Shown one piece after another: positions 33,251 through 39,021 of a stretch of 42,988 nucleotides of DNA (position 1 is the stretch's first letter; each line of letters opens with the position of its first letter). The notes below the pieces were generated by a model. That model had not been told where the DNA came from. It made no database searches and saw only the letters and a program-made list of their open reading frames with translations. Origin of the DNA: Magnetococcales bacterium HCHbin5 (GTDB lineage: Bacteria; Pseudomonadota; Magnetococcia; Magnetococcales; Magnetaquicoccaceae); assembly GCA_002753505.1 (NCBI GenBank), contig PEAG01000023.1:1-42988 (forward strand), in the 5' to 3' direction. A program made the position numbers and the translations under genes.

Positions 33251-34225
33251 TCAGGCAGCCAGTGCCCCGCCGCAGGAGGAGCCACAGCCTGCCGTGCAGA
33301 CCAGGCAGTGGTTGCCGGTGACGATCGGCCGTTCTGCCAGCCGTGCCGGATCGGCCTGGCTGACCGTTTCGGTCTGTTCCACGGCGATGGGCATCGCCAG
33401 TGCCAGGTTAAAGTCGCAATCGTAGAGTCTGCCATCCCAATCTACGCTGATCTGGCTGCGACACATCAGGTGGTCCAGGGTGGCCGGATTGAAGGCCTGC
33501 TGCAAGCGGGTTAAATAGTCAGCCTCCTGCCGGGTCCGCCGCAGTTCCGCCCGAAAACGGCCGATGGGCATGTTGGCAATGGTCAACAGGCGGCTGAACA
33601 CGATACCGAACGACTCCTGCAAGGCCCGCCGGTAGGCAGCCTCCAATGCCAGCTGTTGCGGTGGCAGTTGCGCCGTGCTGGGATTGTAAACCAGATTGAG
33701 GGGCAGCTCCGGCTCCACCCCATATCCCAAACGGTTCAGTTGTTGCAGAACGGTGATGGCCTGCTGGTAGACACCGGCCCCCCGTTGAGCCGTTACCGTT
33801 GGCTCCAGATAACAGGGCATGGAGGCTACCAACGCCACCTGATGATCCCGTAAAAATTCGGCCAGACCTGCCAGTCCCGGTTCCAGCAACACAACCAGGT
33901 TGGTGCGCAGTTGAACGCGGACCGCGCTCTGTCGCAAGGCGATGATCAACCGGCGCAAAGCGGGATTCAGTTCTGGGGCCCCGCCGGTCAAATCCACCAT
34001 GCGGCAACCCGAGCGATGGACCAACGCCATCACCTGTTCCATCGTTGACCAGGACATCATCTCCTGGCGACGCGGCGAAGCCCCCAGGTGGCAATGGCGG
34101 CACTCCAGATTGCAATACAGGCCCAAATTCAGTTGAATCACCTCCAGGGTATGGCTGCGCAATCCGGCCGGACCCAGATAGGGTTGGATGGCCTGTTGAA
34201 AGAGGGGTTGTTCCATGGGATTCAT
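33251..34225 (-). CDS. arsS: Arsenosugar biosynthesis radical SAM protein ArsS
   Basis: ArsS joins dimethylarsenite to a 5'-deoxyadenosyl group on the way to arsenosugars. The 324-residue protein shows the cluster motif C38-x3-C42-x2-C45 (YCNLECRHCHLGASP) and the C-terminal DUF3641 part with LVYNPS, LLTIANMPIGRF, the MCR...WDGRLYDCDFN segment and the end CTAGCGSSCGG. The arsenite methyltransferase ArsM that supplies its substrate is not in the window. I use ATG 34225, which has GGAG upstream at a somewhat long distance; TTG 34261, overlapping the maf stop, is an alternative. Confidence 0.87.
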   Translation of the reverse strand: MNPMEQPLFQQAIQPYLGPAGLRSHTLEVIQLNLGLYCNLECRHCHLGASPRRQEMMSWSTMEQVMALVHRSGCRMVDLTGGAPELNPALRRLIIALRQSAVRVQLRTNLVVLLEPGLAGLAEFLRDHQVALVASMPCYLEPTVTAQRGAGVYQQAITVLQQLNRLGYGVEPELPLNLVYNPSTAQLPPQQLALEAAYRRALQESFGIVFSRLLTIANMPIGRFRAELRRTRQEADYLTRLQQAFNPATLDHLMCRSQISVDWDGRLYDCDFNLALAMPIAVEQTETVSQADPARLAERPIVTGNHCLVCTAGCGSSCGGALAA

Positions 34226-34257
34226 GCGGCTGAATAGCTCCTGCGACGGGAGTCGGT

Positions 34258-34857
34258 TCAAAGGATTGCAAAATTTTCTTGTTGCAACAATCGCCGCAAG
34301 GCGATCAAGGGCAGGCCGATCAGGGCGGTGGGGTCTTCTCCGGTGATCTGTTCAAACAGGATGATGCCCAGCCCTTCCGACTTGAAACAGCCGACACAAT
34401 CATAGGGTTGCTCCCGCCGCAGATAGGAGTCGATCAGGTCAGTATCCAGGGTGCGGAACAGAACCTGCGACGGGACAACCAGGGTACGGGCGCGTTCCTC
34501 TCCGCTGTGGTAGAGGCAAATACCGGCGTAAAAATGAAGGGTTCGACCAGAAAAGCGTTGCAACTGCGCCACGGCCACCGTATGGGTACCGGGTTTGTGT
34601 ATGATCTCCTCCTGGCCGTTTGTCTCATCCCGCAGTACCGCCACCTGATCGGCACCGATGATCAAAGCCTGAGGGTGGGAGACGGCCACCGCCCGGGCCT
34701 TGGCCTCTGCCAGCCGACCGGCCATCTGCTGCGCTGTTTCGCCTGCCTGTTGGGTCTCCTCCACCTGGGGAGAGGCTGTCTGATAGGCGAGCCCCAACCG
34801 GTCCAGCAACTGGCGGCGGTAGGGGGAGGTGGAGGCCAGTACGATGGGCGGTCTCAT
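34258..34857 (-). CDS. Maf-family nucleoside triphosphate pyrophosphatase (YceF type)
   Basis: The 199-residue Maf protein hydrolyses non-canonical or modified nucleotides to monophosphates. Hallmarks are LASTSPYRRQLLDRLG, IIGADQVAV, the KPGT region and the C-terminal EGLGIILFEQITGEDPTALIGLPLIALRRLL, which is the YceF (m7GTP-cleaving) pattern rather than that of the dTTP/UTP-cleaving subgroup. It overlaps the gene upstream by four bases. Confidence 0.9.
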   Translation of the reverse strand: MRPPIVLASTSPYRRQLLDRLGLAYQTASPQVEETQQAGETAQQMAGRLAEAKARAVAVSHPQALIIGADQVAVLRDETNGQEEIIHKPGTHTVAVAQLQRFSGRTLHFYAGICLYHSGEERARTLVVPSQVLFRTLDTDLIDSYLRREQPYDCVGCFKSEGLGIILFEQITGEDPTALIGLPLIALRRLLQQENFAIL

Positions 34858-35489
34858 GGTGCAAACTGGTAGTGGACAATCTCAGCCGCCACATTGTTCA
34901 GCCAACCGGCGGGTGGTTGAGAGGCATCGATAAAAAATTCCCGTATCTCCCCAGGACCCAGCGGTTTGACCTTATCGCCGTACAGGCTCCCCGCCACCAC
35001 CAACGGATTGACAGCCCGGCGTCCCAACACCTGGTTTTTGCTGTCCAGGAACAGCAGATCCAGGCGGGCATCGTCCACAGCCCGGCTACCGAAATGGTGG
35101 ATCTCCACCCGGATGCGGGGCATGTCGACCACGCTCTTGTCCAACTCCACGTGACTGACGGTGATGAGCCGATCATCAAACAATTTTTTGTTGCTGCGTT
35201 CAATTCGGGTTCCTGCCCGGATTTTTGCCTGGGCAGCGGCTGAGGTTTCGGTCAACTGAATCTCCGCGTCGCCCCAGTCCTTGTGGGGGTTGAACGAAAT
35301 CGGGGGCAGATCGGGAATCTTGCTGGAGAGCCAGACCCCCTTGACGACAACCCCTCCCGGATTTTGCGTTTCACCGTTGGACGAACCAAAAAACAGCAGA
35401 TAGATCAGCAACAGGAGCAGAACCGCCACCAGGGCGGCTGCTCCAATCATGACCTTGCGGTTGCTTTTCAGGGCAGCTATATCAATCAT
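34854..35489 (-). CDS. Membrane-anchored protein of unknown function
   Basis: The 211-residue product has one N-terminal membrane helix (about 14-35) after a short basic cytoplasmic tail, and the rest should be periplasmic. The body is rich in beta-strand patterns (VVKGVWLSSKIPDLPPISF, RIRVEIHHFGSRAVDDARLDLLFLDSKNQVLGRRAVNPLV, LGPGEIREFFID), which resembles an Ig-like or LEA-type adhesive fold. I cannot name a family. The start at ATG 35489 lies inside the end of dcd (eight-base overlap), and it overlaps maf by four bases, so it is firmly part of the operon. Confidence 0.75.
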   Translation of the reverse strand: MIDIAALKSNRKVMIGAAALVAVLLLLLIYLLFFGSSNGETQNPGGVVVKGVWLSSKIPDLPPISFNPHKDWGDAEIQLTETSAAAQAKIRAGTRIERSNKKLFDDRLITVSHVELDKSVVDMPRIRVEIHHFGSRAVDDARLDLLFLDSKNQVLGRRAVNPLVVAGSLYGDKVKPLGPGEIREFFIDASQPPAGWLNNVAAEIVHYQFAP

Positions 35490-36081
35490 CCGCTCTCTCC
35501 GAATGGGCATCTCGCACAATGCGACTGGCCAGGGGTCCGCTTTGGCCGTGATATTTGGCACCGCGTTTCTCTCCGTAGGGCTTGCTGGTGGGGCTGGAAA
35601 GCAGCTCGAAAGAGATGGCCCCGATGCGCATACCGGGTTTGAGAGCCAGCGGCAGACGTCCCGCATTAAAAAATTCAAACGTGATATTGCCGTTCCAACC
35701 CGGATCGACCGAGTGGGCGGTAATGTGAACCATCAGGCCGACTCTGGCCAGACTGCTCCGACCATCCAGCCAACCCACGATATGGTTGGCCAGTTTGATC
35801 CGTTCCATGGTCATCCCCAGGGCAAACTCACCCGGATGGAGAAAAAAATGGTCATCCGGGTCAATGGTCACGGTTTTCATCAAATTTTCGGAGACGGAGT
35901 AGCTGCCTGTACTGGCGGCAAGATCCAAAAACGGGGTTTGGCACGGTTGGAATGTCTGAAAAACATGGCCCAACCGCACATCGACGGAAAAGGAGCCAAA
36001 GGCCTCCTCAGCCGGTGCCGGTTCAATTTCAATCTCTCCGTTGGCAATTTTTTTCAGTACGTCCTGATCCGATAACCTCAT
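35482..36081 (-). CDS. dcd: dCTP deaminase
   Basis: Dcd converts dCTP to dUTP, the first step toward dUMP for thymidylate synthesis. The 199-residue protein shows GRSSLARVGL, HITAHSVDPGWNG and NITFEFFN, which hold the catalytic glutamate and nucleotide contacts, and a C-terminal GAKYHGQ. Whether it also has dUTPase activity, as in the bifunctional archaeal forms, cannot be judged by eye. The start at ATG 36081 follows a purine-rich GGGGGGTGAG. It sits in the same operon as a thymidylate-synthase-like protein. Confidence 0.92.
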   Translation of the reverse strand: MRLSDQDVLKKIANGEIEIEPAPAEEAFGSFSVDVRLGHVFQTFQPCQTPFLDLAASTGSYSVSENLMKTVTIDPDDHFFLHPGEFALGMTMERIKLANHIVGWLDGRSSLARVGLMVHITAHSVDPGWNGNITFEFFNAGRLPLALKPGMRIGAISFELLSSPTSKPYGEKRGAKYHGQSGPLASRIVRDAHSERADD

Positions 36082-36082
36082 C

Positions 36083-36721
36083 TCACCCCCCGCGTTTGCG
36101 CTGTTTCTGGATGCCTGGAAATATACCATTAAAGTCCCGAAAGAGATCCTTATAATTTTCGGGATCTCGATAGGCTTTCTTGACATAATTTTCGGGAAGT
36201 TGCTGCAACTCTTCCACGTCCGCCCACCCGTTGGGCAGCGGAAAGGCGTAATAGGGCCACTGGGGCGGAACATGGCGCGCCAGAATGATATGGATGGGTT
36301 GTTGCATGCGCATGGCGGTATAGACGCGGTGCATGCCGTCATTGATCAGCGGCAGGGTGCGCCCATCGGCCTCCCGGGAGATTTCCACCACCGGGGGGGT
36401 GAGGGGAATCGGGCCCTCTTCGTCGCCATCCTGCTGCTGGACCCAAAAAAAGAGCCCACCCTCCAGGGCAAAAATATTATGACCCCGTTGCAGAAAGGCT
36501 TCATACAGCCCGTGCAGCCGTTCATAATCGGCCTGCAACACATAATTTTGCGCCGGATAGAGGGTACGGGGCTCCACCTGACGCACCAGGGTCAATTCAG
36601 CCTGTTGATAGACCAACGGTTGACCAAACCCCCGCAGGCGGGTCTGCCGGAATCGATCCAGCAGTTCCGCTTCGGAGATGGGTTCAATCCGGGTGATATG
36701 GGGCGCGTGTGGGTCGGGCAT
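36083..36721 (-). CDS. Uncharacterised protein with a ParB/sulfiredoxin-like motif
   Basis: The 212-residue soluble protein has no membrane segment. The stretch LPLINDGMHRVYTAMRMQQPIHIILAR resembles the DG-x-HR box of ParB/sulfiredoxin-fold proteins, which can bind nucleotides or act as nucleases and ATPases. The rest (ENYVKKAYRDPENYKDLFRDFNGIFPG at the C-terminus, YVLQADYERLHGLYEAFLQRGHNIFALEGGLFFWV in the middle) looks well conserved, but I recognise no family. The start overlaps the HAD gene by 38 bases, and dcd begins one base after its stop. Its place among nucleotide enzymes suggests a nucleotide or DNA substrate. This is inference. Confidence 0.75.
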   Translation of the reverse strand: MPDPHAPHITRIEPISEAELLDRFRQTRLRGFGQPLVYQQAELTLVRQVEPRTLYPAQNYVLQADYERLHGLYEAFLQRGHNIFALEGGLFFWVQQQDGDEEGPIPLTPPVVEISREADGRTLPLINDGMHRVYTAMRMQQPIHIILARHVPPQWPYYAFPLPNGWADVEELQQLPENYVKKAYRDPENYKDLFRDFNGIFPGIQKQRKRGG

Positions 36722-37409
36722 GATCCACCTTCTCCTTCAGCAGGCTGTAGAGATGTTCCACCTCCAATTGGCCGAGATGGGCCACCGTCCTGTCTGGAGG
36801 AGGGGAGAGGCCATTCAGGGTCTGAATGGTATCAGCGAGTTCCTGTTGGGGACGATGTAAAACCCATACCGTTTTTATCCCCAATTGTCGAGGGGGCGCA
36901 ATATCCATCTGATAGGTATCGCCGATCATGATGGTTTGACTGGCCGGAGTTCCCACCTGGGCCAGGGCGGTTTGATAAATGTTCAGGTCGGGTTTGGCAC
37001 ACTGTTGTTGAAAAGACAAAAAACTGGGCCGACTCCGGCTCTCCTGGGGAAAAAGCCGGCAGAAGCCCGCATGAAAGGGGGCCCAGATATTGGAGATAAA
37101 GCCGTAGGGTATCCGGGCCTGCCTTAATTTTTCCAGCCACTCCTCTGCACCGGGTAAAACATAGGCCTCCTCGATCTGCGCCTGCCAGAGTTGTTGGACC
37201 GTGGCAAAGGTTTTGATCGGGTCGGTGTGCCATTGCTGCACCATGGCCGCCGCCAACAGCTCCGGCTGGGTGGTGGGGGTGCAAAACAGCAGCCGGGTCA
37301 GCGGGGCCTTGGCGGCAGGGGGCAACTGCAAAGCCTCCAGCAGTCGCCGGGCCGGTCCGACCGAGGGGCCGCCAATCAGGGTAAAACCGATATCCAAAAA
37401 TACAAACAT
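36684..37409 (-). CDS. HAD-superfamily hydrolase
   Basis: The 241-residue protein shows motif I DIGFTLIG at the N-terminus, a motif II serine in GFISNIW, motif III lysine in CAKPDLNIYQ and motif IV GDTYQMDIAPPRQLGIKTVWV, with a helical cap between motifs I and II. The second aspartate of DxD, the general acid in phosphatases, is replaced by glycine (D-I-G), as in some REG-2-like members, so catalytic competence is uncertain. A nucleotide monophosphatase role would fit the operon but is not shown by the sequence. Confidence 0.85.
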   Translation of the reverse strand: MFVFLDIGFTLIGGPSVGPARRLLEALQLPPAAKAPLTRLLFCTPTTQPELLAAAMVQQWHTDPIKTFATVQQLWQAQIEEAYVLPGAEEWLEKLRQARIPYGFISNIWAPFHAGFCRLFPQESRSRPSFLSFQQQCAKPDLNIYQTALAQVGTPASQTIMIGDTYQMDIAPPRQLGIKTVWVLHRPQQELADTIQTLNGLSPPPDRTVAHLGQLEVEHLYSLLKEKVDHARPTRAPYHPD

Positions 37410-37425
37410 TGCTACCTGGACTCCT

Positions 37426-38910
37426 TCACTTTAACCCCATGGCACAGCGGGCCATCTCACGGCCCAGATAGAGGGCGTGGGCAATATCCGACAGGGCATT
37501 GTCCCTGGCCAGCATTTTTTCCAGGCTCTCCACCTCTTTGGCCCGATACTCGTGCAGCAGTTGCCCCTGGTACAGATGCTGGACCACAATTTCCTGACTG
37601 TCATGGTCCAGGGTGACCACAAATTCGCCGCAAGGATCCTGGCGCAAAGATCGCCGTCCGGTGGTCGGGTCAAGCCGATCTGCCGTTTTCTTGGCCTCCG
37701 CAATGGCCTGGGCACGGTGCAGGCCGCTGCCTTGGGGATCAATGCTGATGGAGTGGCTGATCAGGGTGAGGGGACCGACCGGCATCGATACCTGCTCGGC
37801 CACATGGCGTTGAATGGCCATCAGGCCGTAACAATTTTTTAACCAGCCATCGAGGGCATTGTGGGTGCGAAAGCTGGCAGTCAGGGTGAGGCGGTCGGCA
37901 AATTTGCGAAAAAAGAGGGCCACCAGACAGGGATGGCCGGAGGTGGCGGGCAGGCTGTCCCGGTTGCCATCCCAGAGGGTGACATAGGCGCGGCGGGACT
38001 CGGCATCCTCCTGCAGGTGCTGGATGCTGTTGGCCAGCCCGTCGATGGGTGTGGAGCCATCGCGGAAATAGCCCCGCAAACGGTGCCCGTAGGTGTAGGA
38101 TTGCTCCGAGGCCGGGCTGGGGTCCAGGATGGTCGCCTGATAGGCCTGCAACTCGGCCAGGGAAAAGCCAAAGCGGGCCAAGGTGGCGGCCTCTTCAACC
38201 GCCGGTTCTTCAACGATCACCTTCATGTTTTGCAGCTCAATCCGCTCCCCCTTGCGCAGCTGCTGCCGGTGGCCGAAGCGCATCAGGCAAAAGATCAACT
38301 CCTGCCACGCCTCCAGCGGGGTATGGCGGAGGATGGTATGGCCACCCGGATGGGAAGGATACCATTGGACGCCGGGTTGGCTGATGGGGCGTTGGATGCG
38401 GGGGGCGGTACAGGGCTGTTGGGGCGGAAGCTGGGCAAAATAGTGCTGGATCGCTGCCCCGGCCTCTGCCTCCCGACAGGAGCTCAGATCGGTGACAGTG
38501 AGGGCTGTTCCCCCCGGCCGGTGGCTGAAATCCTGCGGCAGGACAGCACCATCCATCCTTTTGTTGGTGCCGATAATACGGTACATGGGGCTGCCCAGGT
38601 AGTCACTCTCCTCCAGACCCTGGGCAAAAAAGGCCGTCAATTCCAGCCGGGAGCCGGAGAGATCCTTGCCCAGTATCAGGAGATGGGCAATCTGGGGGTT
38701 GTAGAGCAGATTGCGCAACAATTCAGCCAGGCCGTTGCCATAGAGAGTGCCCAGAACGGCGACGCGGGCACGCTGCGGCTCCAGATCGATACCCAGCGCG
38801 GCCAATTTTTTGTGGATGGTTTTCACGGGAGACCAGAGGGTTACCACGCCCACATCCCCTAAAGGATTGACGATCAGCAGTTTGTCTGCATAGTATAAGG
38901 GTTCAAACAT
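37426..38910 (-). CDS. Thymidylate-synthase-like protein with MtrA-like N-terminus and DUF4346-like C-terminus
   Basis: This 494-residue protein has three parts. Residues 1-130 resemble the corrinoid-binding MtrA subunit family (NPLGDVGVVTLWSP, VAVLGTLYGNGLAELLRNLL, HLLILGKDLSGSR). Residues about 260-415 look like thymidylate synthase: YGHRLRGYF, SRRAYVTLWDGNRD, a cysteine in the position of the catalytic one (C328, GHPCLVALFF), FRTHNALDGWLKNCYGL with the phosphate-binding arginine, and ISHSISIDP. The usual RSCD is RTHN, and the strict HxY is altered, so the reaction may differ from dUMP methylation. The C-terminus (HALYLGREMARCAM) matches DUF4346. Such fusions are mainly known to me from archaea. 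It is first in the operon with dcd. Start is ATG 38910; the ribosome site is weak. Confidence 0.75.
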   Translation of the reverse strand: MFEPLYYADKLLIVNPLGDVGVVTLWSPVKTIHKKLAALGIDLEPQRARVAVLGTLYGNGLAELLRNLLYNPQIAHLLILGKDLSGSRLELTAFFAQGLEESDYLGSPMYRIIGTNKRMDGAVLPQDFSHRPGGTALTVTDLSSCREAEAGAAIQHYFAQLPPQQPCTAPRIQRPISQPGVQWYPSHPGGHTILRHTPLEAWQELIFCLMRFGHRQQLRKGERIELQNMKVIVEEPAVEEAATLARFGFSLAELQAYQATILDPSPASEQSYTYGHRLRGYFRDGSTPIDGLANSIQHLQEDAESRRAYVTLWDGNRDSLPATSGHPCLVALFFRKFADRLTLTASFRTHNALDGWLKNCYGLMAIQRHVAEQVSMPVGPLTLISHSISIDPQGSGLHRAQAIAEAKKTADRLDPTTGRRSLRQDPCGEFVVTLDHDSQEIVVQHLYQGQLLHEYRAKEVESLEKMLARDNALSDIAHALYLGREMARCAMGLK

Positions 38911-39021
38911 GGGAGCCCTGTGGGCAAAGGGTGGCAAGTCAATGGACTCAGGCAACCAGCAAAGCGAGCAACGCCCCATTCTGCCCCCATTTTGGCTGGA
39001 TTAAAAGGGCTGTGCTTGAAT

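Follow-up and report, generated by a model that had tools for sequence, protein, structure and literature searches.

We conclude that a 494-aa protein of Magnetococcales bacterium HCHbin5, in which a thymidylate synthase-like domain lies between two further domains, is very probably a thymidylate synthase. The activity is read from sequence, through the protein's exclusion with ThyX, the missing salvage route, and the kept catalytic residues. From that exclusion and the general absence of thymidine kinase (Tdk), dihydrofolate reductase (DHFR), and Mch it follows that the protein is almost certainly the sole thymidylate synthase of its carriers. The fuller statement, that this sole synthase stands in the place of ThyX, uses a folate one-carbon unit, and takes its hydride from a non-classical source, has in our estimate about an even chance of holding as a whole. 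It is odd that a ThyA-fold enzyme takes over from ThyX and DHFR does not come with it, because ThyA oxidizes tetrahydrofolate and thus needs DHFR, and bacteria without DHFR mostly use ThyX, not ThyA (PMC1971073).

Domain make-up and predicted structure

The window (the whole stretch of DNA that was analyzed, 42,988 nucleotides) encodes the protein on the minus strand at 38910-37426, the interval given in the original prediction, which named no strand. An in-frame ATG at 38979 would allow a product of 517 aa; the alignments of relatives begin at the Met of 38910. From the N terminus, the protein consists of an MtrA-like Rossmann domain (residues 1-170; 38401..38910), a ThyA-fold catalytic domain (residues 196-410; 37681..38325), and a DUF4346 domain, "PterinBD" in Pfam (residues 424-493; 37432..37641), all on the minus strand. 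Pfam and NCBIfam matches and, for the front and the center, the predicted folds agree on this order, which had been proposed beforehand.

DUF4346 (PF14251, E 2.2e-13) scores 51.2 bits against a cut-off of 29.6 and is present in 38 of 38 family members. The ThyA family model PF00303 matches residues 226-384 (E 1.5e-6, 28.0 bits; cut-off 24.3) and is matched by 37 of the 38 members at E 0.01. Among NCBIfam models, TIGR03283 for the thymidylate synthase of methanogens matches best (residues 200-389, E 1e-29), at 103.5 bits, below its equivalog cut-off of 174.55. At the front, the MtrA subunit-A model gives a weak match (residues 14-86, E 0.018) and the threshold of PF04208 (MtrA) is not reached; the Pfam scan returned no match to PF02511 (ThyX) in this protein. 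NF002128, a 390-position model named MtrA, matches in two stretches, of which the C-terminal one is better, and another genome of the phylum (G088) encodes a stand-alone protein, L028, in which MtrA is followed directly by DUF4346. The 494-aa protein therefore looks like an MtrA-DUF4346 protein that has ThyA at its center. Such stand-alone proteins have both outer domains in the same order; unlike the synthase, they have no ThyA domain in between and have kept the cobalamin motif, which in L028 is intact beside a Cys-rich front. In one copy from Thiomargarita (L085:5995-7653), repeated 'LTPLLTKEGLGVVELTVRKV' units separate the MtrA-like domain from the ThyA domain, perhaps through the in-frame insertion of a DNA repeat. 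Our search of the open-access literature found no paper on DUF4346 or on the three-domain protein.

AlphaFold2 models of the protein reached a mean pLDDT of 77 and then 85, with a pTM of about 0.5, so that the packing of the domains in them is unreliable. In the predicted model, the central domain folds like ThyA, in line with the resemblance first noted from the sequence, and superposes on ThyA-fold enzymes with VIA-align Z scores of 20-24. Its closest structures are 9iqu and 9iqc, both of the phage FAD-dependent dCMP hydroxylase AfhB (Z 23.5-23.9, 16% identity), then the CMP hydroxymethylase MilA, and then thymidylate synthases (Z 20-21, rmsd 2.2-2.8, about 205 residues). Although AfhB is the best structural match, it acts on dCMP and its solved chain has only 217-234 residues. 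The title of 9iqc describes a riboflavin-dependent monooxygenase with dCMP and FAD, and this structure shows that the ThyA fold is able to host FAD; a flavin motif was not identified in the 494-aa protein.

The front domain of the predicted model superposes on MtrA 5l8x (Z 15.5, rmsd 2.6, 151 residues). MtrA, the corrinoid subunit of methyl-H4MPT:CoM methyltransferase, holds cobalamin through Glu54 and the ligand His84 (PMC4915002). In the synthase family, an hhalign comparison with the stand-alone protein L028, which keeps both elements, places a deletion at the GHxxGQ lower-axial-ligand loop and finds YGN, YGE, or YGD in place of TEN, so that the counterparts of the His84 loop and the Glu54 motif are missing. 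Corrinoid binding by the front, at first described as corrinoid-protein-like, is thus not supported, the ligand loop being lost; the domain no longer has a cobalamin site and probably serves, as a guess, a structural role or holds a different ligand.

The same evidence bears on the idea that dUMP is methylated with carbon already at the methyl level, from 5-methyl-tetrahydrofolate or from a methyl-corrinoid by way of the MtrA-like domain, in which case no hydride would be needed. An MtrA fold in front and the pterin-binding name of DUF4346 speak for such a donor, against which stand the altered ligand loop and TEN motif and the chemistry of the ThyA catalytic Cys, which suits methylene transfer. 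We regard a methyl-level donor as very improbable. The Pfam name, the one hint to the role of DUF4346, suggests that this domain may bind pterin.

Exchange with ThyX and the gene neighborhood

The HCHbin5 genome (4.19 Mb, 99.45% complete) carries the three-domain protein, and a Pfam search of it found no ThyX (PF02511) and no second ThyA. Among 48 Magnetococcales genomes, 25 have the three-domain protein, 19 have ThyX, none has both, and 4 have neither, the last being only 65-76% complete; in all 30 genomes that are at least 90% complete, exactly one of the two is present (Fisher p 8e-10 for exclusion across the order, a statistic that ignores kinship). Both kinds of synthase occur within one genus (g2, with 8 carriers and 3 ThyX genomes) and within one family (f2), and the pattern is therefore not that of a single deep split. 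ThyX is likewise missing from all 14 carriers outside the order, where the three-domain protein is the ThyA-like match in every genome; these belong to Desulfobacterota, Armatimonadota, Eremiobacterota, and Thiotrichaceae and include one Rhodospirillaceae bin. Two of the records (G290 and G307) are equal in size and agree in match length and place within three bases, appear to be one genome, and were counted once. Absences throughout refer to Pfam models at E 0.001, and most carriers are draft bins.

The fusion had been expected mainly from archaea, with an archaeal origin in mind. A scan with two peptide patterns, which reach fairly close relatives only, covered 84,980 species of bacteria and archaea and found bacterial carriers alone, and so lends this expectation no support. 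In the tree, a single branch sets each larger group apart from the rest, and relatives that have names put the HCHbin5 genome within Magnetococcales, close to Candidatus Magnetaquicoccus. One Magnetococcales genome (G057) has two fusion copies (L009 and L031) on different branches, 56 and 49% identical to the 494-aa protein. A Desulfosoma bin (G309) with both the fusion and DHFR also has a weak, divergent ThyA-like frame of 259 aa (L110:2387-3163), in which the Asp169 region reads RSWN and a TQC motif is present.

Thymidine salvage was considered as the source of dTMP and rejected, as a convincing Tdk match was found in one carrier only, an Eremiobacterota genome (G305). The other matches reach 20-25 bits within frames of about 345-450 aa and, we infer, look like P-loop ATPases. 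Salvage is therefore no general answer as far as Tdk is concerned.

The synthase is the first gene of a run on the minus strand. It is followed after 16 bases by a HAD phosphatase (36684..37409, PF13419), then by a ParB-CE domain protein (36083..36721, PF24392) whose gene overlaps that of the phosphatase, and, in fourth place, by dCTP deaminase (35482..36081; TIGR02274, E 3.8e-60, above cut-off), the start of which was inferred from the TIGR02274 match inside a longer frame. The original prediction had the synthase leading an operon with dCTP deaminase; as a run of genes, this arrangement is confirmed. dCTP deaminase yields dUTP, a source of dUMP, and its presence in the run fits a thymidylate role. 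Homologues of the neighbors adjoin the synthase elsewhere as well: ParB-CE in Desulfobacca, HAD and ParB-CE in Armatimonadota, and HAD in a Syntrophobacteraceae bin. Since these associations span phyla, they are either old or co-travelling.

In-place replacement of ThyX was rejected as an account of the exchange; in none of six ThyX regions compared does a homologue of HAD, ParB-CE, or dCTP deaminase adjoin ThyX. A viral or plasmid gene was rejected too, no match having been found among phage or plasmid records; a relative lies on one 81-kb contig of a viral collection, without the HAD, ParB-CE, and dCTP deaminase neighbors. A defense system was likewise set aside, there being no PADLOC match. 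Elsewhere in the window, the portions examined resemble ordinary chromosome. An ArsS-type radical SAM protein (TIGR04167, well above cut-off) is encoded at 33251-34261, downstream of a Maf gene.

Active site, folate, and the source of the hydride

Active-site positions were mapped through alignments and by scoring single-residue variants against curated models, with residue roles as known for the E. coli enzyme. C328 (codon at 37927..37929, minus strand), R348, R306, and N359, the equivalents of ThyA Cys146, Arg166, Arg126/127, and Asn177, are kept in 41 of 41 aligned sequences (about 42-74% identity), and H350 and N351 never vary either. The position of Asp169 is thus occupied by Asn in every member, within the stretch R348-T-H-N351 (37858..37869, minus strand), where Ser167 is mostly replaced by Thr (T349). 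At the positions of His207 and Tyr209, nearly all of the 41 have Ser or Thr (389) and Asp (391), here S389-I390-D391 (37738..37746, minus strand). The kept Cys, the RTHN stretch, and the altered HxY, all pointed out in the original prediction, are therefore invariant or nearly so across the family.

Restoring the classical residues raises the TIGR03283 score (N351D by 3.3 bits, T349S by 2.9, S389H by 4.3, and S389H with D391Y by 9.0), and C328A, R348A, R306A, and N359D lower it. It follows from these gains that the methanogen and canonical models favor Asp169, Ser167, His207, and Tyr209. As the residues listed above are invariant over so wide a range of identity, the enzyme is not decaying; judged by these alignments, its active site is rebuilt and under constraint.

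The kept residues also bear on whether the enzyme might act on another nucleotide, as a dCMP or dUMP hydroxymethylase or the like, with thymidylate coming from elsewhere. It was with hydroxymethylation, or methylation of a different deoxynucleotide, that the altered residues had first been associated, and the sugar-contacting HxY is indeed changed; moreover, the best structural matches are dCMP- or CMP-modifying enzymes of the ThyA fold. Such an activity would leave most carriers without a known source of thymidylate, since they lack ThyX and any other ThyA and for the most part Tdk as well, and it sits poorly with the one-for-one exclusion with ThyX. dCMP hydroxymethylase has Asp at the Asn177 position; this Asp is absent from the family, in which the uracil-type N359 is invariant. 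We consider this possibility slight.

A thymidylate synthase in the place of ThyX would work as follows, to judge from the conserved residues and the fold. Cys328 would attack C6 of dUMP, which R348, R306, and N359 would hold, and a folate one-carbon unit would be added at C5. The original prediction had allowed for another one-carbon carrier; H4MPT is unlikely, since its marker Mch is absent from all genomes checked, and FolP is present in 8 of 8 genomes checked, which therefore make folate. At the step from methylene to methyl, tetrahydrofolate is probably not the classical hydride source, because Asn stands in for Asp169 and DHFR is missing from most carriers. Asp169 in ThyA touches the pterin and aids the opening of the cofactor ring, and the D169N mutant of E. 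coli ThyA reportedly does not promote that opening. The hydride would more likely come from flavin or nicotinamide, and tetrahydrofolate rather than dihydrofolate would be released, as with ThyX; for a hydride from elsewhere with no release of dihydrofolate, we see the chances as evenly balanced. The DUF4346 domain would, as a guess, bind or hand over the pterin.

Against this, the chemistry may be that of ordinary ThyA, with methylene-tetrahydrofolate giving both carbon and hydride, the residue changes compensated, and dihydrofolate recycled by a reductase that escapes the DHFR_1 model, for instance FolM or a flavin reductase fused to FolP. DHFR (PF00186, DHFR_1) is missing from 37 of the 39 carriers, HCHbin5 included, and present in Desulfacinum and Desulfosoma. 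The ThyX-bearing sister genomes are likewise without DHFR, so that folate synthesis must depend on some unrecognized dihydrofolate reductase, which could also serve the three-domain enzyme. Alternative dihydrofolate reductases do exist (PMC1971073), a point in favor of ordinary chemistry. Two methanogen controls have a ThyA match and no DHFR_1 match, and Asp is the residue that the methanogen model favors at position 169; a missing DHFR alone is therefore no proof of new chemistry.

The FolP proteins of several DHFR-less genomes (L092, L093, L095, L096, and L097) have N-terminal extensions of roughly 110-150 aa, with no Pfam match in the three scanned. Compared as candidates for a hidden reductase, the extensions are very different from one another; they are possibly parts of a dihydropteroate reductase. 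Their occurrence in several carriers, like the two genomes with DHFR, favors ordinary chemistry, but the extension is also found in ThyX genomes and is missing from the FolP of Thiomargarita and Desulfobacca. Ordinary chemistry must further account for an invariant Asn where canonical and methanogen models favor Asp, for the reported behavior of D169N, and for a one-for-one swap with ThyX in which 37 of 39 genomes gained no DHFR. We treat it as the main rival, with somewhat less than an even chance.

Place among thymidylate synthases

By its fold and its PF00303 score, the three-domain protein belongs to the ThyA superfamily, and it is neither a ThyX nor a working MtrA. With ThyA (EC 2.1.1.45) it shares the fold, the catalytic Cys, the phosphate Arg residues, and the pyrimidine Asn; the classical features that fail are Asp169, His207/Tyr209, and, in 37 of 39 genomes, the DHFR partner, and the front and back domains are additional. 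The methanogen enzyme, itself poorly studied (PMC9012536), has the nearest curated model and a similarly compact ThyA core, whereas that model spans about 200 positions with no extra domains and favors the classical residues. With ThyX the protein has only the genomic niche in common, that of sole synthase without DHFR, as the folds are unrelated.

An enzyme that holds the place of ThyX in genomes mostly without DHFR probably differs in chemistry from ordinary ThyA. We tentatively propose, at somewhat less than even confidence, a thymidylate synthase of a third mechanistic type, in which the ThyA fold and Cys chemistry would be combined with an external hydride donor, tetrahydrofolate would be released, and DHFR would not be needed, by way of the invariant Asp169-to-Asn change and a built-in pterin-binding DUF4346. 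Two thymidylate synthases, ThyA and ThyX, are considered to serve almost every organism, under the rule that ThyA goes with DHFR and ThyX can go without. Here, a ThyA-fold enzyme occupies the ThyX niche, mostly without DHFR and with a natural, invariant Asn at Asp169. If the chemistry is as proposed, it would break the ThyA-DHFR rule and offer a testable natural experiment on folate activation by ThyA. The protein would also explain the supply of thymidylate in several bacterial lineages that have neither ThyX nor an ordinary ThyA.
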